Below are positions 4,891-56,883 of a stretch of 64,000 bases of DNA, piece by piece (positions within the stretch are counted from its first letter, which is position 1; the number at the start of each line of letters is the position of its first letter). The translations under genes were made by a program, and so were the position numbers. Below the pieces are notes generated by a model. It was not told the origin of the DNA and searched no databases. It saw only the letters and a program-made list of their open reading frames with translations. Source of the DNA: an uncultured Prevotella sp. Its GTDB lineage: Bacteria; Bacteroidota; Bacteroidia; Bacteroidales; Bacteroidaceae. The stretch is from contig OMZM01000003.1 of NCBI GenBank assembly GCA_900315545.1, forward strand, positions 62,001-126,000, in the 5' to 3' direction.

Positions 4891-5685
4891 TTATTTCTTC
4901 GCAGTCGGTATGTTAAACTCCTGTATCTTAGAAATGGTTTGCGAGCCGGTCTTTACCGACACCTTGAAACATACCGTTCCCGCCTTCAGCTTATCAGCCT
5001 TTACCATTGCCGTATATCTTATTGCACTGCCTGGTGCCAATGACTCGACATGTACCGAAGGCGAAATGAAGATGTGCTTGTTGCCTGTTGTTTCCTCAAC
5101 GATAGGCTGAATATTGTAAAGAGTAACGTGCGATGTGTTGACAACCTCAAATATTACCTTGCTCAATTCATTTGACGTTATGATATTGTCGCGGTTATCA
5201 TCAACGAAACGGGCATTCCTTACCTCCACGAGAGCTGACGTTGCAGCCGGTGCAACGTTGCTGCTTGACGGCTGCGTTGCGCTGTATCCGTCAGTGTAGT
5301 CTGGTCCGCTGAAGTCGTAGAGAATATCGTCACCACTGCCAGAGGCATCAAATCCGCTGTCAGTATCATCATACATATCACTGCCATAGTTGCCCGTAGC
5401 ATTTGCTTCCGCCTTTCTTTCCTGCACCATCTGGTAGTGTTCATGCACATCGCGGGCATCTGCCTTGTCTTTTGCATTGCCGATGGCACCTCCAACGATG
5501 GCACCTCCAGCCATGCCGATTATTGTTCCGACATCACTGCCACGACCGCCATTGCTGATACCGCCTATAGCTGAGCCGAGAATGCCGCCAAACTGAGCAC
5601 CTATATAAGTGCCTGTTCCTGTATAAGTACCGCAACTGCTCAATAGCATTGCTGTGCATACGATAATAAATAAATGCTTTTTCAT
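4891..5685 (-). CDS. Glycine-zipper lipoprotein
   Basis: The start is placed at the ATG followed by KKHLFIIV, nine codons inside the longest open frame, because it begins a normal lipoprotein signal peptide ending in the lipobox LLSSC. Right after the cysteine come two glycine-zipper stretches (GAQFGGILGSAIGG and GTIIGMAGGAIVGGAIG), which typically insert in or oligomerise at the outer membrane. The middle is Asp/Ser/Gly-rich and disordered, and the last 110 residues look like a beta-sandwich domain (VEVRNARFVDDN... to QEFNIPTAKK). The exact role is unknown. It is transcribed alone from a TATCTTTGC box at 5709-5717. Confidence 0.75.
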   Translation of the reverse strand: MKKHLFIIVCTAMLLSSCGTYTGTGTYIGAQFGGILGSAIGGISNGGRGSDVGTIIGMAGGAIVGGAIGNAKDKADARDVHEHYQMVQERKAEANATGNYGSDMYDDTDSGFDASGSGDDILYDFSGPDYTDGYSATQPSSSNVAPAATSALVEVRNARFVDDNRDNIITSNELSKVIFEVVNTSHVTLYNIQPIVEETTGNKHIFISPSVHVESLAPGSAIRYTAMVKADKLKAGTVCFKVSVKTGSQTISKIQEFNIPTAKK

Positions 5686-5708
5686 ATCTTCACTTAAATT
5701 ATTCCGTT

Positions 5709-5717
5709 GCAAAGATA
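5709..5717 (-). promoter_or_regulatory. -7 box of the glycine-zipper lipoprotein gene
   Basis: TATCTTTGC on the minus strand, matching Bacteroidetes TAnnTTTG, 23 bp before the chosen start codon. No clear TTG lies 19-20 nt upstream. Confidence 0.45.
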
Positions 5718-5797
5718 AGTAAAATATACAATATAATAAAAGGGAAAACCCTAAAAAAGGGGTGTGAAATCCCTATATTATTATTAAGAACAAAAAG

Positions 5798-5830
5798 AGA
5801 CGGGTAATCCTCCGAAAAGAATTCCCGTCT
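5798..5830 (-). terminator. Terminator of fba
   Basis: On the minus strand AGACGGG pairs with CCCGTCT across a 19-nt loop and is followed by CTTTTTG. It lies 33 bp past the aldolase stop codon. Confidence 0.7.
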
Positions 5831-5862
5831 GCTTACCAATTCAATTATTATGACTTAATGAA

Positions 5863-6870
5863 TCATTTCTGTATTAATTTTCCGTCGCTTCCAAGCACAT
5901 TTACAATCTTGTGCTTATAGAGTTCCACCATGAGGTCGCGTGCCGGACCGCAATACTTGCGTGGGTCGAATTCTCCCGGCTTCTCTGCGAGCACCTTGCG
6001 CACGGCAGCCGTAAAGGCAAGACGCGAGTCGCTGTCGATGTTTATCTTGCATACGGCGCTCTTGGAAGCCTTGCGCAGCTGGTCTTCCGGTATACCTACT
6101 GCATCAGGCAGCTTGCCTCCGTACTTGTTGATGATGTCTACATATTCCTGTGGCACTGACGATGAGCCGTGCAACACTATTGGGAATCCCGGCAACTTCT
6201 CCATTATGGCGTCGAGAACGTCGAAAGCCAGTGGTGGAGGTACAAGCCTTCCGGTCTTCGGGTCGCGTGTACACTGTTCCGGCTTGAACTTATATGCTCC
6301 GTGACTTGTTCCTATTGATATAGCCAGAGAGTCTACACCTGTCTTTGTAACGAAGTCTATCACCTCCTCAGGCTTTGTGTAGTGGCTTTCTTCTGCTACA
6401 ACCTCGTCTTCCACTCCTGCCAACACGCCGAGCTCGCCTTCAACCGTTACATCGAACTGGTGTGCATATTCAACTACCTTCTTTGTGAGAGCTACGTTTT
6501 CATCGTATGGCAATGCCGAGCCGTCAATCATCACCGACGAGAAGCCATAGTCTACACAGCTCTTGCAAACCTCAAACGTATCACCGTGATCGAGGTGCAG
6601 CACGATTTCCGGATGCTCACATCCAAGCTCCTTAGCATATTCCACAGCACCCTGTGCCATATATCTGAGCAACGTAGCGTTTGCATAATTGCGTGCGCCT
6701 TTTGACACTTGCAGTATAACAGGCGACTTTGTTTCAGATGAAGCCTTTATGATAGCCTGCAACTGTTCCATATTGTTGAAATTGAAGGCCGGTATTGCAT
6801 ATCCGCCGTTGATTGCCTTCTTAAACATCTCGCGCGTATTGACGAGACCAAGTTCTTTATAATCCACCAT
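5863..6870 (-). CDS. fba: Class II fructose-bisphosphate aldolase
   Basis: It cleaves fructose 1,6-bisphosphate to dihydroxyacetone phosphate and glyceraldehyde 3-phosphate in glycolysis, and makes the reverse condensation in gluconeogenesis, using zinc. The 335-residue protein shows the class II metal-site motifs: IVLHLDHGD, the EGELG acidic loop, GTSHGAYK and VLHGSSS. It starts with MVDYKELGLVNTREMF, the usual N-terminus in Bacteroidetes. It is a single-gene unit with its own promoter (6932-6963) and terminator. Confidence 0.95.
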   Translation of the reverse strand: MVDYKELGLVNTREMFKKAINGGYAIPAFNFNNMEQLQAIIKASSETKSPVILQVSKGARNYANATLLRYMAQGAVEYAKELGCEHPEIVLHLDHGDTFEVCKSCVDYGFSSVMIDGSALPYDENVALTKKVVEYAHQFDVTVEGELGVLAGVEDEVVAEESHYTKPEEVIDFVTKTGVDSLAISIGTSHGAYKFKPEQCTRDPKTGRLVPPPLAFDVLDAIMEKLPGFPIVLHGSSSVPQEYVDIINKYGGKLPDAVGIPEDQLRKASKSAVCKINIDSDSRLAFTAAVRKVLAEKPGEFDPRKYCGPARDLMVELYKHKIVNVLGSDGKLIQK

Positions 6871-6931
6871 AATTATATTGTTTTATATTTCTATGTAAGT
6901 TGAATGTTTTGAAATTCCATGTATTATCTTT

Positions 6932-6963
6932 GCAAAAGTAAAATAATAATTTGAATAACACAA
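6932..6963 (-). promoter_or_regulatory. Promoter of fba
   Basis: Minus-strand TTG (6961-6963), 20 nt, then TACTTTTGC (6932-6940), matching the Bacteroidetes housekeeping consensus. It gives a leader of about 55 nt. Confidence 0.6.
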
Positions 6964-7000
6964 AAAGTAGACTTGTTTTTTTATAAAAACCGCAAAAAAA

Positions 7001-7032
7001 TTGTTTTTTTCATTTAATAGTGTTATTTTTGC
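7001..7032 (+). promoter_or_regulatory. Promoter of the C10 protease gene
   Basis: TTG (7001-7003), 20 nt, then TATTTTTGC (7024-7032), giving a leader of about 60 nt. It is divergent from the fba promoter. Confidence 0.6.
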
Positions 7033-7099
7033 ATGCTTTTATGATAAATGTGTGTAAATATCAATCTGCGAAGAAATCATTAACAAGCATAATTTAAAG

Positions 7100-10000
7100 A
7101 TGAAAAAAAGTATTATTTTGTTCGTGTTCTGCCTAATCGCAACAACTATATGGGCAGCACCAAGAAATCAACAGCAAGCTCTTACAGAGGCTAAGGCATT
7201 CCTATCTAAAAGAGGTATAGCCAAAGTTGAAAAACTAAGCATGTCATTCCGTGCGCCAAGCAAGCACAAAACAAGCAATGATGCAAGCTACTATGTTTTC
7301 AACATGGACGATGACAAAGGTTTTATTATAGTGTCGGGAGATGACAGGATGCCCCCTATTCTCGGTTATTCTGACAGCGGAAAGTTTGACACTGATAATT
7401 TGCCAGAGCACATTAAGGCATGGATGGAGTCATACGCTGACCAATTGCAGCTGATAGAAAACGGCAAAGCAATGCCGCGTTCTCAAAAAACAATGAAAGC
7501 AATGAGTGTTTCAAAACATGATATTGCTCCGCTGCTCCCCTGCAACTGGAATCAAGGTACACCTTATAACAATCAGTGTCCATTATATACAGAACAATGC
7601 GTTACAGGCTGTGTAGCAACAGCTATGGCTCAGGTGTTATACTATCACCGCGCTAACAGTATCAATGCAACTTTGAAAGAAATACCCGGCTATACTACCA
7701 AAAAACTCGGATTGGAACTTAATGCTATTCCAGCCAACTCCCCTATTGACTGGGACAACATGATTGACAATTACACAGGCAATGAAACATCAGTACAAGA
7801 CAATGCTGTTGCAAGTCTGATGAAATATTGCGGTTATTCAGTACAGATGGACTATAACATATCAAGCAATGGAGGTTCTGGTGCACGTTCGGAAATGCTT
7901 CCGTTTGCATTGATAAACTATTTCGGCTACAGCAACAACACTACTAATGTCTATCGCATAGACTATGGGGCTGACGAATGGGACGACCTAATATATAATG
8001 AACTTGTTAATAAACGTCCTGTACTATATTGTGGTGATTCCAATGGTGGTGGTCATCAGTTTGTAATAGATGGATACGACATAGATGGTCTGTTCCATGT
8101 GAATTGGGGATGGGGCGGAAGTAACAATGGCTATTTCCTTATTTCTGTACTAAATCCAGGCGACAACAGCGGCATTGGAGCATCTTCCACTTCTGACGGA
8201 TATGCTTTTTCGCAAATGGCAACAATAGGTGCAGAACCGTCTGACGTTCCTGAAGAATACGAATTCATTAATTATATGAAAGGCTCGTTAAACTATATAG
8301 ACGGGAATAACATAAGCTACAACATCTGGAACATTTCATGTCATAAAGGAACATTTACCGTTAAACTTATGGCAATGTGTGAGGAAACTGAGGAAAAGTA
8401 TCTTCTGACAACAAGAACATTAAGTAATGTAGGCATGGGACAGGGTCTAAAAGACTTCGCATTCACACTAACACCTTACATGCTTGCTTATTCAGGCATG
8501 CCAGCAGGTACATATAAACTGCTTCTTGTAACTCAAATGAATGGTGATTCCAAAGAGTACAACCTGGAACTTGATAATCTTGACGAAGCCATGATTGACT
8601 ATAACGGAAGCTCATTTATGCTCTACATCCGCTACTACGGTGAGTCCCTTCGTGCATCCAGCATTGCTGCGGGAGATATAGTTTATACACCTTATTTAGA
8701 TACGCCTTATACCGCACCTGTATATATAACCGTCAACAACGAAGGTACACATGACTATTACGGACAACTCTATCTGTTTTCGAGCACTACACAGAACAAG
8801 GGCGATGCCGCTGCCAAAGGAAATATAGTCATAAAAACTGGCGGTTCAGCTACGACTACTATTGACATGGACGTAACAAGCAACGGAGGGACGTATAATA
8901 TATGGGTGTCTACCGATAGCTATGGCAACAATATTATAGGCACTTCGACTGTAAACGTCCAGCCATACTCTGCTACTGTTCAGCCCACACCGACATATAC
9001 AGGTATTACAGTAAACAACATTGCCACTGGAAAGAATGTCTATGGCAATATCCTTGACGGGTATTTCAATGTGGAAAACACTTCTGATTCTCCATACAGT
9101 ATAGACCTTTCTGTCCAACTTTGGTATGTTGAAGGAAATTATATATATCGAGGAACTGTACAGACGGGCAACTATGATATACCGGCGGGCGAAACGCTTG
9201 CAGTGCCGTTCCATTTCTCAGGACTGGAATATAATAAATTATATTATTTGTTCGTTAGCAGCGGCAGTTCCACGAGCTATATTGCACAAGAAGGCGGTTA
9301 TAAATGCATACCTGCAATAAAAGTATTCAACACCAATGGCGTTGACATGTATGCCCCTACAACCAGCTTTACTGTTCCAGAAAATGCTTTGGCTGTTGAC
9401 ATGAGTGCTACGACGTCTGTCAATCATGTAACACCAAACAACAATCCAAACACACTCTACTACTTGAGCAACACTGGCAGCGTGCCTGCCGGAATCAGTT
9501 CAAACGTAATCATAGGAGACAGGTCTGAAAGTATCACACTCAGCGACAATTACTCACTGTATGTACCAAGCACTTTCACCGCCGAGACCATAAGTTACAG
9601 TCGAAGAATGGAACATTCAACCAACGGAACAGGCGGCTGGGAGACCATCGTTCTGCCTTTCGATGTTGACAAGGTAGTTGTTGCCGAAAGCAACAAGCAG
9701 ATAGACTGGTTCCACAGTAAGACCGACTCAGGCAAAGACTTCTGGGTTAAGTCGTACACACAGCAGGCTGACAACGGAACTGTCTACTTCGACTATGCAA
9801 GCCACATGGAAGCATACATACCATACATTATAGCCGTTCCAGGCAATCGTTGGGGCGAGGAGTGGAACTTGCATGGCAAGACTCTCAACTTCATTGGCGA
9901 AAACGCCGTAGTCAATGCCGATAAAAGAGCAATAACAACAGCCGACATCTTCGGATTTAAAGGTATCTTCCATAGCAACACGCTCAACAACATCTACAAT

Positions 10001-10288
10001 CTTGACGATGCCGGCAGCAACTTCGGACTTGTTTCCGATGCAACTGTTCCTGCTTTCCGTGCTTACTTCTTCAACCGACAAGACGGAAGCAACGGTCCTG
10101 CATACCTACGCATAGCACAACAGGACGACAAACCTACAGACGAAACTACCGCACTGACATTCCAGATGGTTCAGGAAGACAGCTCTAACGTCATCTACGA
10201 CTTGCAAGGCCGCAGAATCGACATGTCGTTCAGCAGCCTGCCTAAAGGCATTTACATCATAAACGGCAAGAAGATTGTCAAGAATTAA
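7100..10288 (+). CDS. Secreted C10 family cysteine protease (streptopain-like) with C-terminal sorting domain
   Basis: A 1062-residue secreted papain-fold protease related to SpeB and Prevotella interpain. Residues 1-19 are a signal peptide (ending TTIWAA); about 20-130 is the Spi-like propeptide that keeps the enzyme inactive ('ARNQQQALTEAKAFLSKRG'-type start, YYVFNMDDDKGFIIVSGDDR). The protease domain covers about 145-380, with catalytic Cys171 in VTGCVATAMAQVLYYH and His319 in GGGHQFVIDGYD, followed by the NWGWGG motif. Several beta-sandwich domains follow, and the end, YDLQGRRID...LPKGIYIINGKKIVKN, is a type IX secretion-like type A tail. It is far longer than SpeB. It is probably matured outside the cell and degrades host or dietary protein. 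Confidence 0.9.
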   Translation: MKKSIILFVFCLIATTIWAAPRNQQQALTEAKAFLSKRGIAKVEKLSMSFRAPSKHKTSNDASYYVFNMDDDKGFIIVSGDDRMPPILGYSDSGKFDTDNLPEHIKAWMESYADQLQLIENGKAMPRSQKTMKAMSVSKHDIAPLLPCNWNQGTPYNNQCPLYTEQCVTGCVATAMAQVLYYHRANSINATLKEIPGYTTKKLGLELNAIPANSPIDWDNMIDNYTGNETSVQDNAVASLMKYCGYSVQMDYNISSNGGSGARSEMLPFALINYFGYSNNTTNVYRIDYGADEWDDLIYNELVNKRPVLYCGDSNGGGHQFVIDGYDIDGLFHVNWGWGGSNNGYFLISVLNPGDNSGIGASSTSDGYAFSQMATIGAEPSDVPEEYEFINYMKGSLNYIDGNNISYNIWNISCHKGTFTVKLMAMCEETEEKYLLTTRTLSNVGMGQGLKDFAFTLTPYMLAYSGMPAGTYKLLLVTQMNGDSKEYNLELDNLDEAMIDYNGSSFMLYIRYYGESLRASSIAAGDIVYTPYLDTPYTAPVYITVNNEGTHDYYGQLYLFSSTTQNKGDAAAKGNIVIKTGGSATTTIDMDVTSNGGTYNIWVSTDSYGNNIIGTSTVNVQPYSATVQPTPTYTGITVNNIATGKNVYGNILDGYFNVENTSDSPYSIDLSVQLWYVEGNYIYRGTVQTGNYDIPAGETLAVPFHFSGLEYNKLYYLFVSSGSSTSYIAQEGGYKCIPAIKVFNTNGVDMYAPTTSFTVPENALAVDMSATTSVNHVTPNNNPNTLYYLSNTGSVPAGISSNVIIGDRSESITLSDNYSLYVPSTFTAETISYSRRMEHSTNGTGGWETIVLPFDVDKVVVAESNKQIDWFHSKTDSGKDFWVKSYTQQADNGTVYFDYASHMEAYIPYIIAVPGNRWGEEWNLHGKTLNFIGENAVVNADKRAITTADIFGFKGIFHSNTLNNIYNLDDAGSNFGLVSDATVPAFRAYFFNRQDGSNGPAYLRIAQQDDKPTDETTALTFQMVQEDSSNVIYDLQGRRIDMSFSSLPKGIYIINGKKIVKN

Positions 10289-10346
10289 CAACATAGTTTC
10301 ATCGACAGACAACAGAATTATAAACATAAAAGATATATACATAAAA

Positions 10347-10517
10347 ATGGAGACATATATAAAACCAACTATAAAAGTATTAAGTACAGAATTAGTTTGT
10401 CTCGGTCCTGGAGCAAGCGATGCAGGCAACCCGACAGTAGGAGCCAATTCCTTTAACATGGAAATAGACGAAGACGACAAGCCGACATCATCAGGCGGAA
10501 CAATTTGGGATGAATAA
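10347..10517 (+). CDS. Small acidic peptide of unknown function downstream of the C10 protease
   Basis: A 56-residue product starting METYIKPTIKVLSTELVCLG; this ATG is preferred over one 72 bp upstream because that earlier segment overlaps the protease gene and reads as random sequence. There is no signal peptide. The N-terminus (K/T-Y-x-x-P-x-x-x-V, then a single Cys at residue 18) recalls the many small orphan peptides of Bacteroidales, while the rest is Gly/Ser/Asp-rich (EIDEDDKPTSSGG). It lies 58 bp after the protease and ends at a strong terminator, so the two are probably cotranscribed. It could be a modified or secreted peptide, or a regulator of the protease; neither is shown. Confidence 0.55.
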   Translation: METYIKPTIKVLSTELVCLGPGASDAGNPTVGANSFNMEIDEDDKPTSSGGTIWDE

Positions 10518-10528
10518 ATAAAATCATT

Positions 10529-10565
10529 AAACGCTCAGCATAATAAATTCTTATGTTGAGCGTTT
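10529..10565 (+). terminator. Terminator after the C10 protease/peptide unit
   Basis: A 15-bp stem (AAACGCTCAGCATAA against TTATGTTGAGCGTTT) with a 7-nt loop; its right arm ends in a short T-run. Confidence 0.8.
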
Positions 10566-10652
10566 ATAATTATATAGCTTTCGTTTTCCATACACGTTAT
10601 GAGGCGAAAGGTAAACAAGGACTGAATAACTAATAAACTCCAAGAACGCAGC

Positions 10653-12092
10653 ATGTCATTTACGTCAGCAGCTTTTCTTATATTCCTGCCGGTGGTGTTC
10701 GCACTGTACTGGCTGACACGCCGCAGCGTCAGACTTCAAAACAGCGTGCTGCTTGCGGCGAGCTACGTTTTCTACGGCTGGTGGGACTGGCGGTTTCTCA
10801 TCTTGATAATGATAACGTCGCTCAGCAGTTTCGCGAGCGGTCTGCTCATCGTCGGAAGTGCAGAGAGCAAGAGGCGGGACAGGCTGACTGTGGCTGCCAA
10901 CATTGTGCTGAACATAGGCATTCTGGCTGTATTCAAATACTATAACTTCTTCGTCGACAATTTTGCCGTCATGCTTTCGTCGATAGGCATGTCTGCCGAT
11001 TTTCCGACGCTGAACATTATCTTGCCTGTGGGCATCAGTTTCTATACGTTCCAGTCGCTGTCGTACACCATCGACGTGTATAGAAAAAAGATTGCCGCCA
11101 CCAGCGACCTTGTGGCATTCTGCACGTTCATTGCGTTCTTTCCGCAGCTTGTTGCCGGTCCGATAGAGCGTGCCACAAACCTTCTGCCGCAGATGCTCGG
11201 CAGGCGCACGTTCAGCTATCCGCGTGCCGTCGACGGTTGCAGGCAGATGCTGTGGGGATTTTTCAAGAAGATGGTTATAGCCGACAACTGCGCGCTGGCT
11301 GTTGATACTATTTGGCAGGACTATTCGTCGATGAACGGAACGACGATGGCTGTCGGCGCCATACTGTTCACTTTCCAGATTTACTGCGACTTCTCGGGCT
11401 ACAGCGACATAGCGATAGGCACGGCAAGGCTGTTCGGCATAAACCTGATGCAGAACTTCCGCATGCCTTATTTCTCGCGAAACATAGCCGAATTCTGGCG
11501 TCGCTGGCACATCTCGCTTATGACTTGGTTTCGCGACTACGTCTACATTCCCCTCGGAGGTAGCCGTCGCGGCAGGTGGATTACGCTTCGCAACACGCTG
11601 ACGGTGTTTGCCCTGAGCGGACTGTGGCATGGCGCCAACTGGACATACGTCTGCTGGGGACTGTATCATGCAGTGCTTTTCGTGCCGATAATACTTGTCA
11701 GCAAGTCGCGGAAGTTTGCCGACGAGCCTCAGCTGTGCATCGCCGACGTGTGCAGGATGCTGCTGACGTTCCTGCTGGTGGTGTTCGGCTGGATAATATT
11801 CCGCGCCCCGTCGATGTCGCAGGCGGTTGACTACATCGTCCACTTGGCTGCAAGCATGGCAGACAGTCCGCTGACTATTATGCACGGAAAGGCGGCACTG
11901 CTCTATTCAGCCGTCATCGTTGCAGCAGAATGGATGCAGCGCCGACACCCCCACGCACTGCATTTTGCAGGCTGGATGGGTGCTGCCGGAGCGAAGACGA
12001 CCGTCGCGCGCTATGCCGTCTACCTTCTCATTGCCACTGCCATCATACTGCTGAGGGGCGAGGCACAAACGTTTATTTATTTCCAATTCTAA
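10653..12092 (+). CDS. MBOAT family membrane O-acyltransferase
   Basis: A 479-residue polytopic membrane protein of the AlgI/DltB type, which moves acyl groups (often acetyl) across the inner membrane onto an exported polysaccharide or teichoic-acid-like acceptor. Evidence: the N-terminal FLPVVFALYWL segment, 'LPVGISFYTFQSLSYTIDVY', 'FPQLVAGPI' and the catalytic-histidine motif GLWHGANW (H326), with a second histidine at 339 (GLYHA). About ten hydrophobic spans are visible. Seven bases downstream is an SGNH-like protein, the usual periplasmic partner of such enzymes. Its acceptor here is unknown. Confidence 0.9.
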   Translation: MSFTSAAFLIFLPVVFALYWLTRRSVRLQNSVLLAASYVFYGWWDWRFLILIMITSLSSFASGLLIVGSAESKRRDRLTVAANIVLNIGILAVFKYYNFFVDNFAVMLSSIGMSADFPTLNIILPVGISFYTFQSLSYTIDVYRKKIAATSDLVAFCTFIAFFPQLVAGPIERATNLLPQMLGRRTFSYPRAVDGCRQMLWGFFKKMVIADNCALAVDTIWQDYSSMNGTTMAVGAILFTFQIYCDFSGYSDIAIGTARLFGINLMQNFRMPYFSRNIAEFWRRWHISLMTWFRDYVYIPLGGSRRGRWITLRNTLTVFALSGLWHGANWTYVCWGLYHAVLFVPIILVSKSRKFADEPQLCIADVCRMLLTFLLVVFGWIIFRAPSMSQAVDYIVHLAASMADSPLTIMHGKAALLYSAVIVAAEWMQRRHPHALHFAGWMGAAGAKTTVARYAVYLLIATAIILLRGEAQTFIYFQF

Positions 12093-12099
12093 GAAAGCC

Positions 12100-13005
12100 A
12101 TGCGTAGATTTATCATAAAGACAGCGATTTTTCTCGTGCTTGCGGCTCTCATCGCCGCCGGCATCGAGGCTTACATACGCTCGTGGGACAATTCTTACAA
12201 GGCTAAAAACCGATGGATGACCGACAATGCTGCCACTGTGGAGACCATAATTCTCGGCAACTCGCACGCGCTTTTCAGTTTCAGACCGCAATACGTCGGC
12301 TGCAACGCATACAACCTTGCCAACGTGTCGCAGACCATCGACTACGACAACCTGCTGCTCAGGCACTATGCACCGATGTGCAAGCGGCTGAAAAACGTCA
12401 TCATTACCGTCGACAACTCCAATCTTTTCGACCCGTCGCTCGACGAGATAGGCGCACACAGGGCTACGTTCTACCGCATATACATGGGCATCAGGCGACA
12501 CAGCCTGCTGTCGGAATATTCTTTGGAACTGCTGCATCCTGCCACCGTACAGGCTAAATGGCAGAAGCACATGAGGCACGAGGACATGGAGATAGACTCT
12601 GCCGGATGGTGCTACACCTACAAGGCCGACCAGCGCGACCCGTCGCAGCTTGACGACGAGAGCGTCAGGCAGAGGGCTGAAGGACATATCTGCGGCGACT
12701 GGCGACTGGCTGACTACAACGCAAGGGAACTGCTCGACATAGCCGAATACTGCAAGAAGAACCGACTGAGGCTAACCATCGTGCAGACACCAACATGCAA
12801 GAAATACAACCGACTGATACCCGTGCGACAGCGACGGTTCATAGATTCTACGCTCGACAAGTGCAGAAGGCTTTACGGCGCCACCGTAGTCGACCTGCAC
12901 GACAGCCGGATGTTCAGCGACAGCGACTTCTTTGACGCCGACCACATCACCGACCGCGCTGCTGCAAGGCTAAGCACGATGGTGGGAAAGATGATGCAAC
13001 GGTGA
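12100..13005 (+). CDS. SGNH-hydrolase-like membrane-anchored protein, partner of the MBOAT acyltransferase
   Basis: A 301-residue protein with one N-terminal membrane anchor (residues 7-25) and a periplasmic domain. GNSH at 53-56 matches the GDS-type nucleophile motif (Ser55), and D279-A-D-H282 near the end matches the DxxH motif of SGNH esterases and of DltD/AlgJ/AlgX-type acyl-transfer partners. The first Gly-Asn in place of Gly-Asp is common in this group. With the MBOAT gene 7 bp upstream it probably completes transfer of an acyl group to an extracytoplasmic glycan. No standard family name could be assigned. Confidence 0.7.
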   Translation: MRRFIIKTAIFLVLAALIAAGIEAYIRSWDNSYKAKNRWMTDNAATVETIILGNSHALFSFRPQYVGCNAYNLANVSQTIDYDNLLLRHYAPMCKRLKNVIITVDNSNLFDPSLDEIGAHRATFYRIYMGIRRHSLLSEYSLELLHPATVQAKWQKHMRHEDMEIDSAGWCYTYKADQRDPSQLDDESVRQRAEGHICGDWRLADYNARELLDIAEYCKKNRLRLTIVQTPTCKKYNRLIPVRQRRFIDSTLDKCRRLYGATVVDLHDSRMFSDSDFFDADHITDRAAARLSTMVGKMMQR

Positions 13006-45720: not shown

Positions 45721-47511
45721 ATGATACTACTGTTTGGAGGAACGACAGAGGGCAGAAAGGCTGCTAAGGAACTGGAAGAAGCCGGCAAACAATACTTCTA
45801 TTCTACAAAAACCGGCGAGCAGGACATAGCACTTCACTATGGCACTTGCATCAGCGGGGCTATGGACGAAACAGCAATGGCTGACTTCTGCAAGAGCAAC
45901 GGCATAAGTCTCATTGTCGATGCAGCACATCCTTTTGCACAAAACCTGCACCAGACAGTGGCTGACGTGGCTGCCAAACTGTCTATTCCTGCCATCAGGT
46001 TTGAGCGCATCTACCCCAAAAGGACAAACGACATCACATGGATAGACGACTACTGCGACATTCCTGACAATGCAGGGACAATGCTTGCTACAACTGGTGT
46101 ACAGACCATCGGCAAACTGATGCCGCTGCAAAGAAAAGGCATGAAGATATACTATCGCATTCTTCGTCGCGAGAGCTCCATCCTTCTTGCCCACAAGCAA
46201 GGAGCTGCCGACAGTCAACTGTGCTTCTACGACAGCGATGACGACGAGCAGGAAGTAATGAAAAGGTTAGGCATTGACACTCTCTTACTGAAGGAGAGCG
46301 GGCTGACGGGTGGTTTTCTGAAGAAGACCGAAGCTGCGCGGCAACTGGGTATAAACATCATTGCACTGAAAAAACCTGCCACACCTGATATTTTCCATTG
46401 CGTCAATGGCGAGCACGGCATGCGACGCATGGTAGAGAAGCTGCTGCCAGAGTTCTATCCACTGCGTAGCGGACTAACCACAGGCACATATTCTACGGCA
46501 GCGGCTGTGGCTGATGCCACGCGCAAACTGTTCGGCAGGCGTCCGGAGAAAGTGCCTGTCGTGCTGCCAAACGGCGAAACGATAGACGTAGTAGTCCATT
46601 ATTCCGACAACTACGCCTACACCATCAAGGAAAGCGGCGACGACCCCGACGTTACCAACGGCATAGAGATACGCGCCGAAGTGCAACTTTCAGATAAGTT
46701 TTCCATCGCTGGCGGCAAAGGCGTAGGCACCGTTACATTGCCTGGGTTCGATGTTCCAGTTGGCGAAGCAGCCATCAACAAAGTGCCGCGACAGATGATT
46801 TACGACAACATACAGTTATTGCTTGACAATGTGCCCGACTATTCGGGACATCTGAGCATTACTATCAGTGTGCCTGAGGGCGAGGACATAGCCAAACGGA
46901 CATTCAATCCGCGACTTGGAATAACTGGCGGCATTAGCATCGTAGGTGTCAGCGGCATCATCAAGCCCTTTTCCGAAGACGCTTTCGTTGACTCCATTCG
47001 TCGCTGTATGATGGTGGCTAAGGCTGGCAGTCCTCAGCATGTAGTGATAAACAGCGGAGCCAAAAGCGAGCGATACCTGAAAGACTGGTTTTCGGAACTG
47101 CCTCAACAGGCATTCGTAGAGTATGGCAACTTCATAGGCAAGACTCTGGAAATAGCAGAAGAACTGAAGTTTGGGCGCATCACGCTTGGCGTTATGCTTG
47201 GCAAAGCAGTCAAACTGGCTGCCGGAAACCTCGACACTCACAGCAAGAAAGTCGTCATGGACAAGGATTTTGTCTTCGGTATGCTGCGCGAGGCTGGCTG
47301 CGACGAAGCTGCCATAGACAGCATGAAAGACATTACGCTTGCACGTGAACTGTGGGACAGAGTGCCGGAGCATCTGCTGCAATCCTTTGCCGACACTGTC
47401 ATCAGCCATTGCCGTGCCGTCTGTCAGCCTGCAGCACCGTCGTGCAGGCTCGACATTCTGCTCATAGACGACAATGGAAATATCTGGCAACAAAGAAAAA
47501 GCGGAGAATAA
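45721..47511 (+). CDS. cbiJD: Precorrin-6A reductase / cobalt-precorrin-5B methyltransferase fusion
   Basis: A 596-residue fusion. The N-terminal part (about 1-245) is CobK/CbiJ, an NADH/NADPH-dependent reductase: 'ILLFGGTTEGRKAAKELEEA', 'DAAHPFAQNLHQ' and 'RFERIYP'. The C-terminal part (about 255-596) is CbiD, which methylates C1: 'LRSGLTTGTYSTAAAVADAT', 'GIEIRAEV', 'AINKVPRQMI', 'FNPRLGITGGISIVGVSGII' and 'VINSGAKSERYLK'. CbiD is specific to the oxygen-independent pathway. It is the last gene of the operon. Confidence 0.95.
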   Translation: MILLFGGTTEGRKAAKELEEAGKQYFYSTKTGEQDIALHYGTCISGAMDETAMADFCKSNGISLIVDAAHPFAQNLHQTVADVAAKLSIPAIRFERIYPKRTNDITWIDDYCDIPDNAGTMLATTGVQTIGKLMPLQRKGMKIYYRILRRESSILLAHKQGAADSQLCFYDSDDDEQEVMKRLGIDTLLLKESGLTGGFLKKTEAARQLGINIIALKKPATPDIFHCVNGEHGMRRMVEKLLPEFYPLRSGLTTGTYSTAAAVADATRKLFGRRPEKVPVVLPNGETIDVVVHYSDNYAYTIKESGDDPDVTNGIEIRAEVQLSDKFSIAGGKGVGTVTLPGFDVPVGEAAINKVPRQMIYDNIQLLLDNVPDYSGHLSITISVPEGEDIAKRTFNPRLGITGGISIVGVSGIIKPFSEDAFVDSIRRCMMVAKAGSPQHVVINSGAKSERYLKDWFSELPQQAFVEYGNFIGKTLEIAEELKFGRITLGVMLGKAVKLAAGNLDTHSKKVVMDKDFVFGMLREAGCDEAAIDSMKDITLARELWDRVPEHLLQSFADTVISHCRAVCQPAAPSCRLDILLIDDNGNIWQQRKSGE

Positions 47512-50037: not shown

Positions 50038-50074
50038 AAATCCAAATAGAAACGCAATGTTTCTATTTGGATTT
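50038..50074 (+). terminator. Terminator of kbl
   Basis: A perfect 16-bp stem (AAATCCAAATAGAAAC against GTTTCTATTTGGATTT) with a 5-nt loop, followed by TGCTTTG. Confidence 0.8.
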
Positions 50075-50492: not shown

Positions 50493-51881
50493 ATGGGGTT
50501 CATTTCTAATCTGTTCTCAAAGAAGAACAAGAATTTGCAAACGGTATTGAATGAATCGTCGACAGATTCAAAAGAAGACAAGTCGATTATAGATAAAGAA
50601 GGTTTCAACTATAGCCTGCTATCATACGATAATGCTGGTTGGCTGACATACCCTGATGGCCTGAAATGCAGGAATGTATCTAAGATGTTCAGCGAATTAT
50701 TTGACGATAGACTGTTTAACGTTGTTGCTGATACCAAACAAGAACTTGGCTATAAAGATGGTGAAGCTTTCTATATTCAATTCAACAAAAATGGGAAGCA
50801 GGTTTTTGAATATGTAGACACATTTGTTGTTGGCATTTGGGAACTCTTCACTAACAAACTTCTTTGTTTCATTAGGCTTGATGACCATGTAATGAATCAG
50901 CAAGAAATAGAGCAATATCAACGTTATGCTGCTAAAGAGTGGAATAATGTAATCTGGGGTGACAAATTAGAAAGGGGTATGGGTGCTTTGACTGATATTT
51001 GGCATGGCATACAAGACCATTCCATTAGGCAGGAGTTCGTTGAAAAAGTCTTTGAAAAAAAAGCGGTTAACAATCAATTGTCAGTCGATAAGTATCTGTT
51101 CACTTTTGAAAATGGATTGTTGAGCAGTTGTGATTATGACGATTATAATGTAATGATTTTAGATATATTCGATGGAGAGACAATTGATGAATATATGGAG
51201 AACGCAAATCAGCACTGGAAGAGTGAAAAAGCGATGAAGGCCTTAATTAATCTCCAAGCTATATATTCGACAAGGATTAGTCAAGAGATATTATCTTCTG
51301 ATATAACATGCAAAAAATATGCTTATGACGAATGGGGACTTTGTATTAACTATATTGCAATGGGCACATTCTTCCAACAGTTCGACATGGATCAAGAAAC
51401 GTTCATTGAAAGTACAGATGGTAAATATGAAATTCTATCTAACAATGTTTCTAATGGCATTAAAACCACAAGAATTAGGGCATACAATGAAGTATTTACA
51501 TTCACGAATGGTCATTCTATGCCTGCAGAGGCTATAAAAAAGACAATTGAAGAGAAAGATGATTTTGGAGATAACACAGAAGGCTATGTCTATGTAATGA
51601 CTAATTCTTCTATTGAGGGACAAGTGAAAATAGGAAAGACAACGAGAGACCCGTATGAACGTGCTAAAGAATTGTCTTCTGCAACTGGGGTACCAACGCC
51701 TTTTGTCGTGGTATTCTATAAACCTTTCAAGAATTGTCATTTTGCAGAGAAGACGATTCATCAATATTTGGAAAAAAAAGGGTATCGGGTAAACAATAAT
51801 CGTGAGTTCTTCAATATGTCAATACCAGAAGCTATTGATGTAGTTCAATCAATGTACACTATAGAACAAAAACAAGTCTGA
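50493..51881 (+). CDS. T5orf172 (GIY-YIG superfamily) domain protein
   Basis: A 462-residue cytosolic protein. The first 360 residues match nothing I know: a short 'GFISNLFSKK' start, then a mixed alpha/beta region rich in Trp and Tyr. The C-terminal part, about 363-455, is a T5orf172-type GIY-YIG nuclease domain: G364-Y-V-Y367 as the first motif, V378-K-I-G-K382 as the second, then R385 and R390, the metal-binding Glu419 in FAEKTIH, and N436-R-E-F-F440. All catalytic positions of the fold are present. It starts an AT-rich three-gene operon and is probably a DNA-cutting component. Confidence 0.75.
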   Translation: MGFISNLFSKKNKNLQTVLNESSTDSKEDKSIIDKEGFNYSLLSYDNAGWLTYPDGLKCRNVSKMFSELFDDRLFNVVADTKQELGYKDGEAFYIQFNKNGKQVFEYVDTFVVGIWELFTNKLLCFIRLDDHVMNQQEIEQYQRYAAKEWNNVIWGDKLERGMGALTDIWHGIQDHSIRQEFVEKVFEKKAVNNQLSVDKYLFTFENGLLSSCDYDDYNVMILDIFDGETIDEYMENANQHWKSEKAMKALINLQAIYSTRISQEILSSDITCKKYAYDEWGLCINYIAMGTFFQQFDMDQETFIESTDGKYEILSNNVSNGIKTTRIRAYNEVFTFTNGHSMPAEAIKKTIEEKDDFGDNTEGYVYVMTNSSIEGQVKIGKTTRDPYERAKELSSATGVPTPFVVVFYKPFKNCHFAEKTIHQYLEKKGYRVNNNREFFNMSIPEAIDVVQSMYTIEQKQV

Positions 51882-51934
51882 CAAACAAAGACATGATGTA
51901 ATCCTTCTAAACAATCAAAGCGTATTTATCATAG

Positions 51935-54100
51935 ATGAGTGTAAGATTGAACAAAGTGATGACCACGCTCAATATAGGGCTGGATACTGTTTATGACTTC
52001 CTTCGCGGAAAGCCTGAGCTAGGAACTATCGAGAATCTAACCATCAATTCAAAGATAACAGATGAACAATATGAAGCTCTGAAGAAAAAATATCAGGGGG
52101 ATGCTACAATCAAAAAAAATGCAAGCAGTGTTTTCTCAAAAATTAGTAAGCGGAAGAACAAAAAAGTAAAAGAAGACAATACATCTGGATTGAAGATTCT
52201 GGGAAAAATTGACCTTGACAGCCTTAATCTAAAGACTCGTCCAGTAAAGAAGACAAGAGCAGAACTCAAACAAAAAGTTGATGATAATACAACATATGAG
52301 ACTCCCATAAATGTAACAATGGGTGAATTTGATTTTGCTAAACATCAAATGACATATTGGTCGGAAGGGAAGAAATTCACCCTATTAGACAAGCATATCT
52401 CTGCTAATCTCAATAATTTGAGAGCTGATTTTGAAAACATTAAGGTCGCGATTCAACTTGATTATCAGAATAGCCGTTTTAAGTTCGTAGAATCCAGTTT
52501 TTTGCAATCATTGATTCAGACCTACCAAGATAAAGAAAGAGAACGAAAAAGGAAGGAGAAGAAAGAGAAGGAGGCAAAGAAATTAGACCAGAAGCGTTCG
52601 AATGTCATCAACAGCATTCTTCAGAAAGCAAAAAAGCCAGAAAGGGAAGCTGTTGAAATAAAAGATTCTATCTCTCTTTCAAGTATTCGATTTACTGGTA
52701 GTTTGGCAACCATTACATTTAATGGGAAAACACATCGTTCTTATGTTACCAAAAATGAGAAGAGGCTATTATTATCATTGAACAGAACTCTAAGCATTCC
52801 GATAATTATAAACACTGCCGGGGGAACTTTTAGATTCGGTATTGGCATTAGTGAATTAGTTGAGAAGAAAGATTTGCAAAAACAGCCTGTGCCCCTCAAA
52901 CCTTTCCCACAGCAAAAGGTAAGATTAGGGATAGAGAATGTAGAGTTTCACGAAGGCTATTACCTTATATGGATAATTCGCCAGGGAAAGAAAGATATGT
53001 CAATCGCTCCTTTAAGAATAACTGATACAAATTCATTGCCATGTCTACGACTCATCCAAAAATACTTTGCTGAAAGGTTCCCCAAGGGTATAGATGTCAT
53101 ATATGATAGCCAACATATTGTCGGTCTGTCCCAAGCCTATACCTTGGGAAGTTATATAAAAGTACTCAATAATAATATAGACGAACATGGTGAATGGTGG
53201 GAGGAGGTACAGAATGACCGAAGACCAACATTAGCAGCGTGCAGAAAGACATCTTCGACGTTGGTTCGCAAAGAGATGTCTTTAAGGAACTGCTATCTTG
53301 ACTATCTTGCAGGAATGCCAAATCAGAAAACTGCATTAAAAGTTTATGAAGTAAGGCAGAACCAGCAGGAAGATGTGTTTATCTTTACTGTAATCATTGG
53401 TATCGGTAGCTATGCCGTAATCTTTGAAAATGTATCGTTTACTTCTACGGCGACATGGGTGTTTATCGTAAGAGAAGAAAACTATGAGGAATGTATAAAC
53501 AGAATTTTTGATTACTTTACGAATTATGAACTGCACAACAAACGTCAGTCGCTTATAAAATCCTTAAACCCACCACAAAAGTTCAAGGCAGAAGACTACT
53601 ATAAAATCATGCACGACGAACCAAGAGGCTGGATAAAGAGACTGAATGACATTTTGGATAGAGAGATTCCATTGAACAGAATTCAGTTTAACCAAGGTCT
53701 TCATATTGCCAAGGAAGCAGACTCTCGTATAGGCAGTCCGGAAATAATAAAAGTCCAACATCTTCATAACGAACTGATGCGGAGGCTTTATTGTCAACTC
53801 TGTCAGCAGTTCGGTGAAGAAAACGTTGGCACAGAGAACCATATTGGAACAAAGAAAATTGATGTAGTTGCAAGAACAGGAGGCGGATATAACATTTATG
53901 AAATAAAAACAGATATAGAACCGCGAGGTTGCATAAGAGAAGCAATGGGACAAATTTTGGACTATGCCTTTTTCGAATGTGAAGATATCATCCATAAGAT
54001 GGTTATTGTTGGCGCAACGCCAGAGACAAAAGAAGTCAAAACTTACCTCACAAAATTCAGAGAAAAGAATGCGTTGGAAATCTACTATATTGCTGTATAG
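51935..54100 (+). CDS. Predicted PD-(D/E)XK nuclease with an IF-2-like N-terminal domain
   Basis: A 721-residue protein I do not recognise as a whole. Residues 1-110 resemble the N-terminal extension of Bacteroidetes translation initiation factor IF-2: MSVRLNKV..LNIGLDTVYDFL, then KITDEQYEALKKKY, and a second shared block GKIDLDSLNLKTRPVKK. A Lys/Glu-rich coiled segment spans about 190-225 (KERERKRKEKKEKEAKK). The middle is unknown. The last 100 residues fit a PD-(D/E)XK fold: E628, D643 (KKIDVVAR), E656-I-K658 (IYEIKTD) and Q673 (GQILDYAFF). It lies 53 bp after the T5orf172 gene and 11 bp before the next gene. Confidence 0.65.
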   Translation: MSVRLNKVMTTLNIGLDTVYDFLRGKPELGTIENLTINSKITDEQYEALKKKYQGDATIKKNASSVFSKISKRKNKKVKEDNTSGLKILGKIDLDSLNLKTRPVKKTRAELKQKVDDNTTYETPINVTMGEFDFAKHQMTYWSEGKKFTLLDKHISANLNNLRADFENIKVAIQLDYQNSRFKFVESSFLQSLIQTYQDKERERKRKEKKEKEAKKLDQKRSNVINSILQKAKKPEREAVEIKDSISLSSIRFTGSLATITFNGKTHRSYVTKNEKRLLLSLNRTLSIPIIINTAGGTFRFGIGISELVEKKDLQKQPVPLKPFPQQKVRLGIENVEFHEGYYLIWIIRQGKKDMSIAPLRITDTNSLPCLRLIQKYFAERFPKGIDVIYDSQHIVGLSQAYTLGSYIKVLNNNIDEHGEWWEEVQNDRRPTLAACRKTSSTLVRKEMSLRNCYLDYLAGMPNQKTALKVYEVRQNQQEDVFIFTVIIGIGSYAVIFENVSFTSTATWVFIVREENYEECINRIFDYFTNYELHNKRQSLIKSLNPPQKFKAEDYYKIMHDEPRGWIKRLNDILDREIPLNRIQFNQGLHIAKEADSRIGSPEIIKVQHLHNELMRRLYCQLCQQFGEENVGTENHIGTKKIDVVARTGGGYNIYEIKTDIEPRGCIREAMGQILDYAFFECEDIIHKMVIVGATPETKEVKTYLTKFREKNALEIYYIAV

Positions 54101-54111
54101 AAACTTTTAAG

Positions 54112-54843
54112 ATGGAAATAAAAGACCTTTCTCCGAGACAACACAAGGAACTAGTCAGCATTAGTCCTCTGCTATGCCAGTGTGGATATATTGAAAGTGC
54201 TGACATGTGTTCTGATAAACCCGACATTTGCCTTCCATCCAAAACCAACAGACAGATTGGAATTGAAGTAACCGAATACACATATCCAAAGGATGAAGAG
54301 AGTATATCTGTTGTTCACCGCATGTTACAAGATTACATATCAGGTATATCAGAAAGGAAACTGAATAATGTTTTGCAAAAGTATTCCAAAGATAAACATT
54401 ATTGTCTGACCGTTTGGTTTCATGGTGGCTCTTTTCCAAGAATAAACAAAATCAATCGGCATAAGAAACAAATATTTGAAGAGCTAGATAGATTCGCTTT
54501 CCCATGTTGCGAAAGTTTTGTCAATGACTACATAGCTTCTTTGGAATTAGAAGAAATCACAAATTCAGAAATCACGGAATCTATTGTTCGTATTCCTTAT
54601 GTTGAAGCATACAGCCAGATTGACGAAACTATGCTACTAAACTGCATTAGAGGCAAAGAAGAGAAATTAAGAGAATACAAGAACATCGAAGACAACAAAA
54701 GCATTAGCGAATATTGGCTTGCCATTATTATATCAGACCCAATACAGATTGATATCAAGAACTATCAACTTCATGACACACTTATATCTGGCTATAATAG
54801 AATATTCCTTATAAAGGGCATACATTGTGTTCAAATAAAATAG
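54112..54843 (+). CDS. Uncharacterised nuclease-like protein of the accessory island
   Basis: A 243-residue cytosolic protein with no family I recognise. Near the N-terminus, KPD38ICLPS followed by IGIE52VT54EY resembles the D...ExK core of PD-(D/E)XK nucleases, with Thr where Lys is usual, so activity is uncertain. The rest is charged alpha/beta sequence ending in a strand-rich 'NRIFLIKGIHCVQIK'. Two Cys pairs (C22/C24 and C149/C150 region) could bind metal. It is the third gene of the operon, 11 bp after the large nuclease candidate. Its TAG stop lies inside the target duplication of the IS element. Confidence 0.55.
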   Translation: MEIKDLSPRQHKELVSISPLLCQCGYIESADMCSDKPDICLPSKTNRQIGIEVTEYTYPKDEESISVVHRMLQDYISGISERKLNNVLQKYSKDKHYCLTVWFHGGSFPRINKINRHKKQIFEELDRFAFPCCESFVNDYIASLELEEITNSEITESIVRIPYVEAYSQIDETMLLNCIRGKEEKLREYKNIEDNKSISEYWLAIIISDPIQIDIKNYQLHDTLISGYNRIFLIKGIHCVQIK

Positions 54844-54846
54844 TGG

Positions 54847-56225
54847 TAGTGTAAGTTGAACTGTGTCAAGGCCATTTTCTTTATTATATTAACCTCAGAT
54901 GGGAGACACGATTTGTAATCGTGTTTTCCAGGTGAGGAGCCTTTCTGGCTGCAAAGTTACATAATTTCATACCTATCACCAAATTTTATTGCTAATTGTT
55001 GTGAGATGAGTGCCCAGTTCGCAAGGGGCATGGTCCACTTCTCGCTGATATTACGGTAAGCCAGATAGACCAGTTTCTCCAATGCCGTATCAGAAGGGAA
55101 CACGCCCTTGTTTTTCGTCACCTTGCGTATCTGCCTATGGTAGCCCTCAACAGTGTTCGTTGTGTAGATGAGACGGCGGATTTCCTTTGTGTACTGGAAG
55201 AACTCAGTTAATCGCTGCCAGTTGTCACGCCACGACTTGATGACGATGGGATACTGTTCGCCCCATTTGGCTTCAAGATTGTCAAGCTCAGCCTCTGCAG
55301 CATCCTTGCTGACAGCGCCATAGACACGCTTTAGATCCTTTAGGAACTCCTTCTGATGCTTGCTGCCTACATACTTGATGGAATTGCGTATCTGATGCAC
55401 GATGCAGAGCTGTACGGCCGTATTGGGGAACACGCTCTGAATGGCATCAGGAAACCCCTTAAGACCGTCCACACAGCATATCATGATATCCTCCACACCG
55501 CGGTTCTGAAGGTCTGTAAGTACCTCCAGCCAAAAGTTCGCTCCTTCGCTCTTGGCAACATACATGCCAAGCAGTTCTTTGTGGCCCTCCTTATTGATTC
55601 CCAGTACATTATAAATGGCACGGGTGACGGCACGGCCTGTATCGTCCTTTACCTTGTAATGGATAGCATCGAGCCAGCAAATGGCATAGACAGAATCCAG
55701 CGTGCGTGATTTCCATTCCTTAATCTCCGGCAGCACACGGTCGGTTATTGCGCTGATTGTCTCGGCAGACAGCCTGGTATTAAACTCACGCTCGAAGTAA
55801 CGACTGATTTCCCTGGTGCTCGTACCAAAGGCATACATACCTATAATCTGATCAGCCATACCCTCTGCAAGGATTGTCTCTCGCTTGCGGACGGTCTGAG
55901 GATCAAAGCTGCCATCACGGTCACGAGGGGTTTCAACATTAACCTCGCCATACTGCGTCTGAACTGTCTTTGACATCTTGCCGTTACGGCGATTGCCGCT
56001 CTCACGGGATTCTTCACTCAGGTGAGCATCCATCTCACCCTCAAGAGCCGCATTCAATATGCGCTCTAACATCGGTGCCAAGGCACCATCCTTACCAAAC
56101 AATGGCTTGCCGGTACGCAACTGCTCGGCCGCCAACTTGTAATCGATCTCTTCGTTTGCCATCATAAAATAAACGTGTTATACTACTTTTCTATTGTAGC
56201 CTGACACAGTTTACTTTACATTCTC
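54847..56225. mobile_element. IS256-family insertion sequence, intact
   Basis: About 1.38 kb with one transposase gene. Imperfect terminal inverted repeats: the left end (54847 on) reads TAGTGTAAGTTGAACTGTGT, and the right end (to 56225), read inward, GAGAATGTAAAGTAAACTGT, with AACTGTGTCA shared. The sequence AAAATAGTGG occurs on both sides (54837-54846 and 56226-56235), consistent with the 8-9 bp target duplication of this family plus a chance base. End positions could be off by two or three bases. Confidence 0.8.
54957..56165 (-). CDS. IS256 family transposase
   Basis: A full-length 402-residue DDE (mutator-type) transposase with no frame damage. The catalytic triad is D166 (CWLDAIHYK), D233 (CCVDGLKGF) and E340 (YTTNTVEGYHRQIRK), with the family's 'C/D...H' insertion 'QLCIVHQIRNS' between D233 and E340. 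The N-terminal part includes 'NRRNGKMSKTVQTQYGEV', the usual DNA-binding region. Translation may start at the first or second of two adjacent ATGs. The element looks active. Confidence 0.95.
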   Translation of the reverse strand: MMANEEIDYKLAAEQLRTGKPLFGKDGALAPMLERILNAALEGEMDAHLSEESRESGNRRNGKMSKTVQTQYGEVNVETPRDRDGSFDPQTVRKRETILAEGMADQIIGMYAFGTSTREISRYFEREFNTRLSAETISAITDRVLPEIKEWKSRTLDSVYAICWLDAIHYKVKDDTGRAVTRAIYNVLGINKEGHKELLGMYVAKSEGANFWLEVLTDLQNRGVEDIMICCVDGLKGFPDAIQSVFPNTAVQLCIVHQIRNSIKYVGSKHQKEFLKDLKRVYGAVSKDAAEAELDNLEAKWGEQYPIVIKSWRDNWQRLTEFFQYTKEIRRLIYTTNTVEGYHRQIRKVTKNKGVFPSDTALEKLVYLAYRNISEKWTMPLANWALISQQLAIKFGDRYEIM

Positions 56226-56275
56226 AAAATAGTGGGCACAATGTGATTGACTTGGTATAAAGAGTAATATGGTTG

Positions 56276-56518: not shown

Positions 56519-56883
56519 ACAATCCTAAAATGTTGCAGGAAGAAGTCAAGAAACTTATGCACGACGACTTTGTTAGCAACAGGCGAGGCATTTTCGAGTA
56601 TGTGCTCGGCGGATGTCAAGACACAAAACTGCTGAACGTGCGCCTGTTTGACAAACCTACCATGCGCAAGGTATATCAGAAACAGACCGATAAGGCAAAG
56701 GCTGAAGGTATTAGCAACTGTCCTTATTGCGCTATCGGGCACGATGCTAACCGCCAGCGCATCTGGAAACTGGAGGAAATGGATGCCGACCACGTTGCTG
56801 CATGGAGCAAGGGCGGAGCAACGAGCATGGACAACTGCCAAATGCTTTGCAAGACACATAACAGGGCAAAAGGAAATAGATAA
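56518..56883 (+). pseudogene. C-terminal HNH domain of a DUF262-type restriction protein, 5'-truncated
   Basis: About 120 residues carrying a complete HNH nuclease module: CPYCAIG, then 'LEEMDADHVAAWSKGG' with the catalytic His in DADHV, and 'NCQMLCKTHNRAKGN'. This matches the C-terminal part of long DUF262-HNH proteins related to the type IV restriction enzyme GmrSD. The in-frame upstream codons run only to a TAG at 56497-56499, so the DUF262 half is missing. An ATG at 56530 could still give a 117-residue HNH protein, but there is no clear promoter or ribosome site. Confidence 0.7.

Follow-up and report, generated by a model that had tools for sequence, protein, structure and literature searches.

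Why does the middle gene of a three-gene nuclease operon begin with a piece of translation initiation factor IF-2, and what could such a protein do? The question is raised by a 64,000-nucleotide stretch of DNA from an uncultured Prevotella sp. (contig OMZM01000003.1, positions 62,001 to 126,000), hereafter the window, in which three open reading frames (ORFs) of 462, 721 and 243 amino acids (aa), genes 1, 2 and 3, follow one another on the plus strand with intergenic gaps of 53 and 11 bp. Sequence comparison shows that gene 2 opens, over residues 1-112, with a shortened version of the Bacteroidales IF-2 N-terminal region, comprising both its N-domain and a downstream motif, a feature absent from the first-pass annotation of this DNA.

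When gene 2 was searched against 100 relatives, matches were obtained in 74, nearly all of them to residues 1-126, and the matched frames were mostly 900-1100 aa long and correspond to IF-2; the IF-2 frame of the own genome bears the GTP_EFTU, EF-G_D2, IF2_N and IF-2 domains. The match spans the N-domain, in which gene 2 is 33-52% identical to the 11 other rows of the alignment, and the motif LGKIDLDSLN..TRP.KK (gene 2 aa 89-106), so that N-domain and LGKIDL can both be aligned with IF-2. Of 14 IF-2 genes examined, 13 have a GKI[DN]L motif at residue 95-103, and 12 have another copy at residue 181-293 with TRPKKK after it; gene 2 therefore carries the N-domain and the motif without the long spacer. 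The pattern LGKIDL was found three times in the own genome (in IF-2, in gene 2, and antisense to a sugar-nucleotide gene), and the reversed control pattern once. The likeness to infB is that of the N-domain and the LGKIDLD..TRP motif, whereas the GTPase, EF-G_D2 and IF-2 domains are missing from gene 2. An infB paralogue was considered and rejected, since GTP_EFTU and IF-2 domains are absent.

The occurrence of this module outside IF-2 was surveyed in five fully listed searches that together cover 469 different genomes (209 belong to the own genus), all drafts of varying completeness, with the gene 2 protein as query in the search of 100 relatives and an N-domain profile in the other four. As 160 of the genomes were hand-picked (mostly more complete ones, together with less complete ones having two or more matches and some known carriers), the carrier frequencies are biased. 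The module, whole or in part, was found outside IF-2 at 14 loci in 14 of the 469 genomes, gene 2 included, and 11 of these are in the own genus. The 13 carriers besides gene 2 comprise eight members of known defence families, two proteins encoded beside restriction genes, and three without a visible link to defence. A further 21 N-domain matches in frames shorter than 850 aa were set aside as IF-2 itself, each being the sole N-domain match or a split piece; the eight that were read (L044, L054, L055, L056, L104, L105, L106 and L107) were all IF-2 broken by contig ends or frameshifts. The gene 2-type N-domain was not found in viral contigs, nor the PtuA N-domain in phages and plasmids, and a description of an IF-2 module on defence proteins was not found in the open-licence PMC literature, as judged by titles and the start of abstracts. 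Two records, MT835665.1 (L032, labelled bacteriophage) and OY726001.1 (L115, labelled plasmid), show by eye a chromosomal-looking nusA-like/infB neighbourhood and are probably mislabelled bacterial contigs.

Five of the carriers are PtuA proteins of Septu systems in the same genus (G055, G120, G192, G207 and G390). The PtuA profile was matched at L036, L072, L075 and L076, the PtuB profile having been run on L036 only; for the locus of G120 (L071, itself unscanned), another contig (L113) carries a C-terminal part of PtuA together with a PtuB-like HNH gene. These proteins share the IF-2 N-domain of gene 2, and four of the five share its motif too, as GKIDL/GRIDL at residue 83. The PADLOC PtuA profile does not cover their N-terminal extension, its match starting at aa 127-157. 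The effectors differ, being an ABC-type ATPase with an HNH partner in Septu, whereas gene 2 has no ATPase match and ends in a predicted PD-(D/E)XK nuclease. The other defence carriers are an McrB-like protein with AAA_5 and EVE domains that adjoins McrC in G042, its gene interrupted by an in-frame stop; an MkoA-like helicase in G121 (MkoA match 5.9e-93) with S1 domains (PF00575, 2.2e-17); and a TIR protein in G305 (TIR, 6.9e-24) with two N-domains in tandem, accompanied by RILGKIDLSS. The surroundings of two of them were also described. The TIR gene belongs to a TIR-gene cluster (L070, G305:C3:38000-50000, positions 4221-11835), of which three members are confirmed by Pfam and the others by eye. 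The MkoA-like gene, which combines N-domain, S1 and helicase, stands at L069 (G121:C39:26000-40000, positions 3441-12474) with genes for a protein of 244 aa and for a DpdF/PsyrT-like helicase, whose best match in PADLOC is 'poss. alt. Cas3' (9e-165); this large gene cluster looks like an unlisted composite system.

Among the carriers outside known families, the 350-aa protein of G203, encoded beside McrB-like and McrC genes, gave a weak match (profile positions 38-113, E 5e-4) that covers mainly the motif region; at this locus (L073, G203:C1:802000-814000, positions 6027-7079) RELGKIDLDVL is followed by a cold-shock-like stretch seen by eye, for which Pfam gives none, and an ORF resembling an insertion sequence (IS) overlaps the end of the gene. 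Small proteins carry the module in G457 and in G490 (where an Eco57I/ResIII protein is adjacent), and G227 encodes a solo protein of 100 aa. The carrier of G630, a genome of the same class and a different order, is a 552-aa protein. Two small N-domain proteins (L052, 5877-6317, and L053, 5968-6330) have in common a C-terminal tail, Y-x-RI-x-SVPFGGM-x-K, and the neighbour of the one at L052 is a 251-aa protein with the C-terminal end IMYIPSGGQNKKY.

The association with PtuA was also approached from the opposite side. An independent PtuA search of 300 genus genomes found the protein in seven: strong PtuA with the N-domain in G055, G120, G192 and G207; a further strong match in G267, for which the C-terminal part alone was matched, in a 278-aa frame with no N-terminus seen; and distant PtuA proteins in G160 and G227, in which the module was not found. 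A second PtuA of G207 starts MGTKLNVIGKIDLEALNQSSYRP, that is, with the motif and without the N-domain. In 80 genus genomes, a DNA pattern of the GKIDLxxLN type gave 92 matches, 88 of them at the IF-2 locus; one of the other four is in frame at the start of the G207 PtuA, and three are without a GKIDL ORF (G157, with an in-frame stop inside, G193 and G202). The reversed pattern gave no match in the same 80 genomes.

Identities over up to 72 residues suggest that the IF-2 piece was probably captured more than once, because some carriers are nearer to IF-2 than to each other. The best identity to an IF-2 is 77% and 68% for copies a and b of the TIR protein, 69% for the MkoA-like and 57% for the McrB-like module; TIR copy a and the latter two are nearer to some IF-2 than to any other carrier, while TIR copy b is 68% identical to IF-2 and 69% to copy a. 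The nearest relatives of the PtuA modules are one another. The gene 2 module is closer to the IF-2 of other lineages in the genus (52-55% identity) than to that of its host (39-41%), the pattern that a transfer of the operon from one lineage to another would leave. As judged from substitution rates, the PtuA N-domain is under purifying selection: nonsynonymous divergence (dN) is 0.17-0.33 in all six pairs of four sequences, and synonymous divergence (dS) is 0.78-3.24 in five pairs and saturated in one.

The effectors to which the module is joined (DNA nuclease, Septu ATPase/HNH, RNA helicase, TIR and McrB-like) differ, and for this reason we infer that the module sets the trigger or the place of these proteins rather than their chemistry. 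The operon itself probably has a role in defence. For gene 2, the reading that we tentatively favour, while giving it somewhat less than an even chance, is that of a defence nuclease into which a mimic of host IF-2 has been built as bait. If a phage protein bound or hijacked the N-terminus of IF-2, it would also engage the mimic, the engaged mimic would switch on the attached nuclease, and genes 1 and 3 would act as partner nucleases. Bait is preferred because the effectors differ, some copies remain near IF-2, and capture recurs. The broader claim, that Bacteroidota repeatedly took the domain, the motif or both from the N-terminal region of their own IF-2 and used them as an integrated decoy on antiphage effectors that are unrelated to one another, is possible and is put forward with slightly more reserve. 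The likeness to the integrated decoys of plant NLR proteins lies in a piece of a host target fused to varied immune effectors; the gene 2 module differs in that it is known from sequence, without evidence of a pathogen ligand. Were the broader claim true, these proteins, gene 2 among them, would be a bacterial counterpart of the plant decoys, and phages of Bacteroidota would attack or hijack IF-2 via its N-terminus. In any case, the recurrence of the module on defence proteins suggests either that phage infection meets the IF-2 N-terminus or that this region provides a useful cell address, and an IF-2 N-domain or GKIDL outside infB could serve as a handle for finding uncharacterised defence proteins of Bacteroidota.

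Several points weigh against bait and decoy. We know of no phage protein that binds the IF-2 N-terminus. No link with defence was seen for three carriers (G227, G457 and G630), and [LIVM]G[KR]I[DN]L is absent from one of the five PtuA proteins and from the MkoA-like, solo, L052 and G630 carriers, as well as, by reading, from the McrB-like and L053 carriers. Capture from IF-2 is less clear-cut for gene 2 than in the TIR or McrB-like cases: its module is 55% identical to the best IF-2 against 56% for TIR copy a, and its identity to the IF-2 of its own host is only 39-41%. In five of the six PtuA pairs, the dN of the N-domain exceeds that of the ATPase part (0.16-0.23). Only one genome was found to have all three genes together, and AlphaFold models built from the single sequences of genes 1 and 2 were unusable (mean predicted local distance difference test scores of 33.7 and 36.2). 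In favour of bait, phage use of IF2 is shown for Mu in E. coli, where IF2 is reported to bind Mu ends in vivo upon induction of Mu replication (PMC3334882); the same source, however, reports that only N-terminally truncated forms of IF2 were found active in Mu reactions in vitro, so this precedent does not point to the N-terminus. It also describes E. coli IF2 without its N-terminal third as working in vitro and as supporting viability when in excess (PMC3334882), and since the truncated factor still works, the role of the IF-2 N-terminal part is not obvious.

The explanation that comes close behind bait, possible but on balance doubtful, is docking: the IF-2 piece would bind the normal partner of IF-2 (the 30S subunit, the initiation complex or the coupled transcription machinery) and so bring the effector to the sites of phage mRNA, tRNA or DNA handling, and the trigger would lie in another part of the protein. 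Two carrier families point to RNA and translation, since the E. coli Septu system EcB88 is reported to cleave tRNA-Tyr (PMC13096335), and the MkoA-like carrier has the RNA-binding S1 domains described above. One PtuA, moreover, keeps the short motif even without the domain. However, it is not obvious why the TIR or McrB-like carriers should need to be addressed to the ribosome, and the sources used do not establish a partner of the IF-2 N-terminus in Bacteroidota. It is considerably less probable that the module is a generic nucleic-acid-binding domain of the IF2_N fold, resembling a helix-turn-helix (HTH) and reused to bind DNA or RNA independently of IF-2 function. Small N-domain proteins beside other genes (L052, L053) would suit such reuse, and two weak matches, both under the curated cut-off, indicate that the fold may be HTH-like (the G630 N-domain to Pfam IF2_N, 0.0018, and the G227 solo protein to HTH_Tnp_IS630, 5e-4); yet this leaves unexplained the separate GKIDL motif of gene 2, of four of the five PtuA proteins and of the TIR carrier, and the fact that the TIR and MkoA-like copies are so nearly identical to IF-2.

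An expression leader, in which a fusion to the start of infB is kept for efficient translation with no role at the level of the protein, would fit the N-terminal or near-N-terminal position of the piece in the carriers, infB being a highly expressed gene. This is very improbable, as the dN of the PtuA N-domain is well under its dS, the TIR protein has a tandem duplication of the domain, and the retained motif lies some 95 or more residues from the start in IF-2. A different objection concerns the operon as a whole, which could belong to a mobile element, as a selfish nuclease cassette or a regulatory one, rather than serve in defence. T5orf172-type domains like that of gene 1 also occur in phage protein families, and an allele of the end of gene 3 was found on a metagenomic IMG/VR contig (L114) that carries, further on, a gene of secreted type (by eye), a HepT/NTP_transf_2 pair and an integrase of phage type. 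Even so, we regard this as unlikely, though less so than the generic domain: eight of the 13 other module carriers belong to known defence families, and one of the five other gene 3 loci adjoins a restriction-modification locus (Eco57I-type methylase and helicase) while two adjoin zinc-ribbon proteins of the DUF723 type, and one of these two proteins matches GIY-YIG weakly (0.013, under the curated cut-off). The remaining two gene 3 homologues lie beside a TnpB-like gene (by eye) and without a clear partner, respectively.

The features of the operon and its borders are collected in Table 1.

Table 1. Coordinates in the window of the nuclease operon, its predicted domains and its flanking elements.
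Feature	Position	Strand	Remarks
Terminator-like hairpin	50038..50074	+	17-pair stem, T-rich tail; consensus match only
Gene 1, 462 aa	50493..51881	+	N-terminal 360 aa without assignment, then C-terminal T5orf172 (GIY-YIG) nuclease domain
T5orf172 domain, aa 364-453	51582..51851	+	PF10544, 2.8e-18
Gene 2, 721 aa	51935..54100	+	IF-2-derived N-terminus, ~460 aa without assigned fold, predicted PD-(D/E)XK nuclease
IF-2 N-domain-like module, aa 1-60	51935..52114	+	E down to 5e-22 to IF-2 of relatives
IF-2-type motif ILGKIDLDSLNLKTRPVKKTRAELK, aa 88-112	52196..52270	+	Alignment with IF-2 and pattern searches
Predicted PD-(D/E)XK domain, aa 595-721	53717..54097	+	D643, E656, K658, Q673; alignment of C-terminal domains
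Gene 3, 243 aa, PD-(D/E)XK-like family	54112..54843	+	PD, GxE and KExKLxxY invariant; complete up to stop codon
IS, Mutator/IS256-type	54845..56225	-	Transposase 54957-56165; flanking repeat 54837-54844 and 56226-56233
HNH-domain remnant of restriction-type enzyme	56530..56883	+	PF01844, 6.2e-9; PADLOC REase_II, 3e-17

Most of what the first-pass annotation had proposed for the operon agrees with these results, namely its three tightly spaced ORFs, its AT-rich composition (G+C of about 0.35-0.37, against 0.41-0.55 in 2-kb windows over the rest of the window), a T5orf172 protein, a large PD-(D/E)XK candidate and an adjoining IS. The annotator had not recognised the set as a named system, and no named defence system for the three genes was found in Pfam, PADLOC, NCBIfam or PHROGs. 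In PADLOC 2.0, gene 2 matched no family, gene 3 gave a weak match to QatB (0.011) and gene 1 matched in its T5orf172 region only; the Septu components (PtuA ATPase and PtuB HNH) had no match in genes 1-3 in Pfam or PADLOC. The expectation that the exact set would co-occur elsewhere was not borne out, a second genome (G111) having genes 2-3 on a cut contig that lacks the end with gene 1.

The C-terminal part of gene 2 is a predicted PD-(D/E)XK nuclease by motif conservation, D643, E656 and K658 being invariant in all six aligned C-terminal domains (gene 2 and five relatives). Its best PDB profile match is a Cas4, with an E of only 0.011, and PDB profile searches with the alignments of the N-domain, gene 3 and the nuclease domain gave no convincing match. 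The body of gene 2 was found in two of 399 genus genomes, its own (G000) and G111, the metagenome-assembled genome RUG12352, where the last 488 residues are 100% identical (L001, a stretch of G111:C298), and it was not found in viral contigs. The C-terminal domain is shared, at 32-37% identity, with proteins on plasmid records of Vibrio, Pseudoalteromonas and Phocaeicola (H2, H4 and H5), whose N-terminal parts differ from that of gene 2 or are short; further relatives of the nuclease domain are another protein in G044 and a 107-aa piece in G210. On the Vibrio tubiashii plasmid pFP31 (L033, positions 4194-6534), a free-standing relative of this domain adjoins an AbiH gene and is preceded, two genes earlier, by a gene for a GIY-YIG nuclease, in an array of single genes on the same strand. 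Internal repeats in the middle of gene 2 were looked for and rejected, all six segment pairs being at shuffle level (z -0.9 to 0.8).

The T5orf172 domain of gene 1 scores 66.7 bits, against a Pfam curated cut-off of 20, and retains the residues Y365/Y367, K379-G381, R385, E419 (within EKTIH) and the N436 region. PADLOC PDC-S57 and PD-Lambda-1, which are T5orf172/GIY-YIG nucleases, resemble gene 1 in this C-terminal domain, to which the match is confined (aa 361-460), and differ from it in the 360-residue N-terminus. The latter was found in one of 200 genus genomes, namely the own genome, and relatives were not found in the 199 others, the plasmid set or the viral contigs. For gene 3, the annotated likeness to PD-(D/E)XK enzymes holds in part: P37-D38 and G50-x-E52 are invariant in all six aligned sequences (gene 3 and five homologues), but the case is weaker because the position of the Lys, two residues past the Glu, holds T, V or S. 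The PDB profile search with gene 3 gave one irrelevant match (0.42). The family was found in seven of 300 genus genomes, counting the own genome and G111, once in viral contigs (L114), and not in the plasmid set.

The hairpin forms the left border of the operon, downstream of an aminotransferase-family (kbl-like) gene. On the right, the ends of the IS, whose transposase is of the Mutator family (PF00872), are flanked by an 8-10 bp repeat, AAAATAGT(GG). The contig L114 has the right end of the operon without the IS, with 71 of 77 gene 3 residues identical and the window's flank resuming at 56226, while the junction with the IS end in RUG12352 is shifted about 55 bp to the left, which costs gene 3 its final residues. 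The gene remnant beyond the IS had been described as GmrSD-like; a restriction-type HNH fragment of 117 aa, covering the final 97 positions of the PADLOC REase_II model, is indeed present, but the GmrSD identity was not confirmed, since the matches are of HNH type only and none is to the DUF262/DUF1524-type domains that we take to define GmrSD. A comparison of the region by means of the upstream gene, as a possible hotspot, was confined to two near relatives, in one of which the contig ends too soon (L108), the other being without a nuclease operon (L109). Elsewhere in the window, one ORF at 45721-47511 combines CbiJ and CbiD domains, a fusion of the cobalamin pathway.

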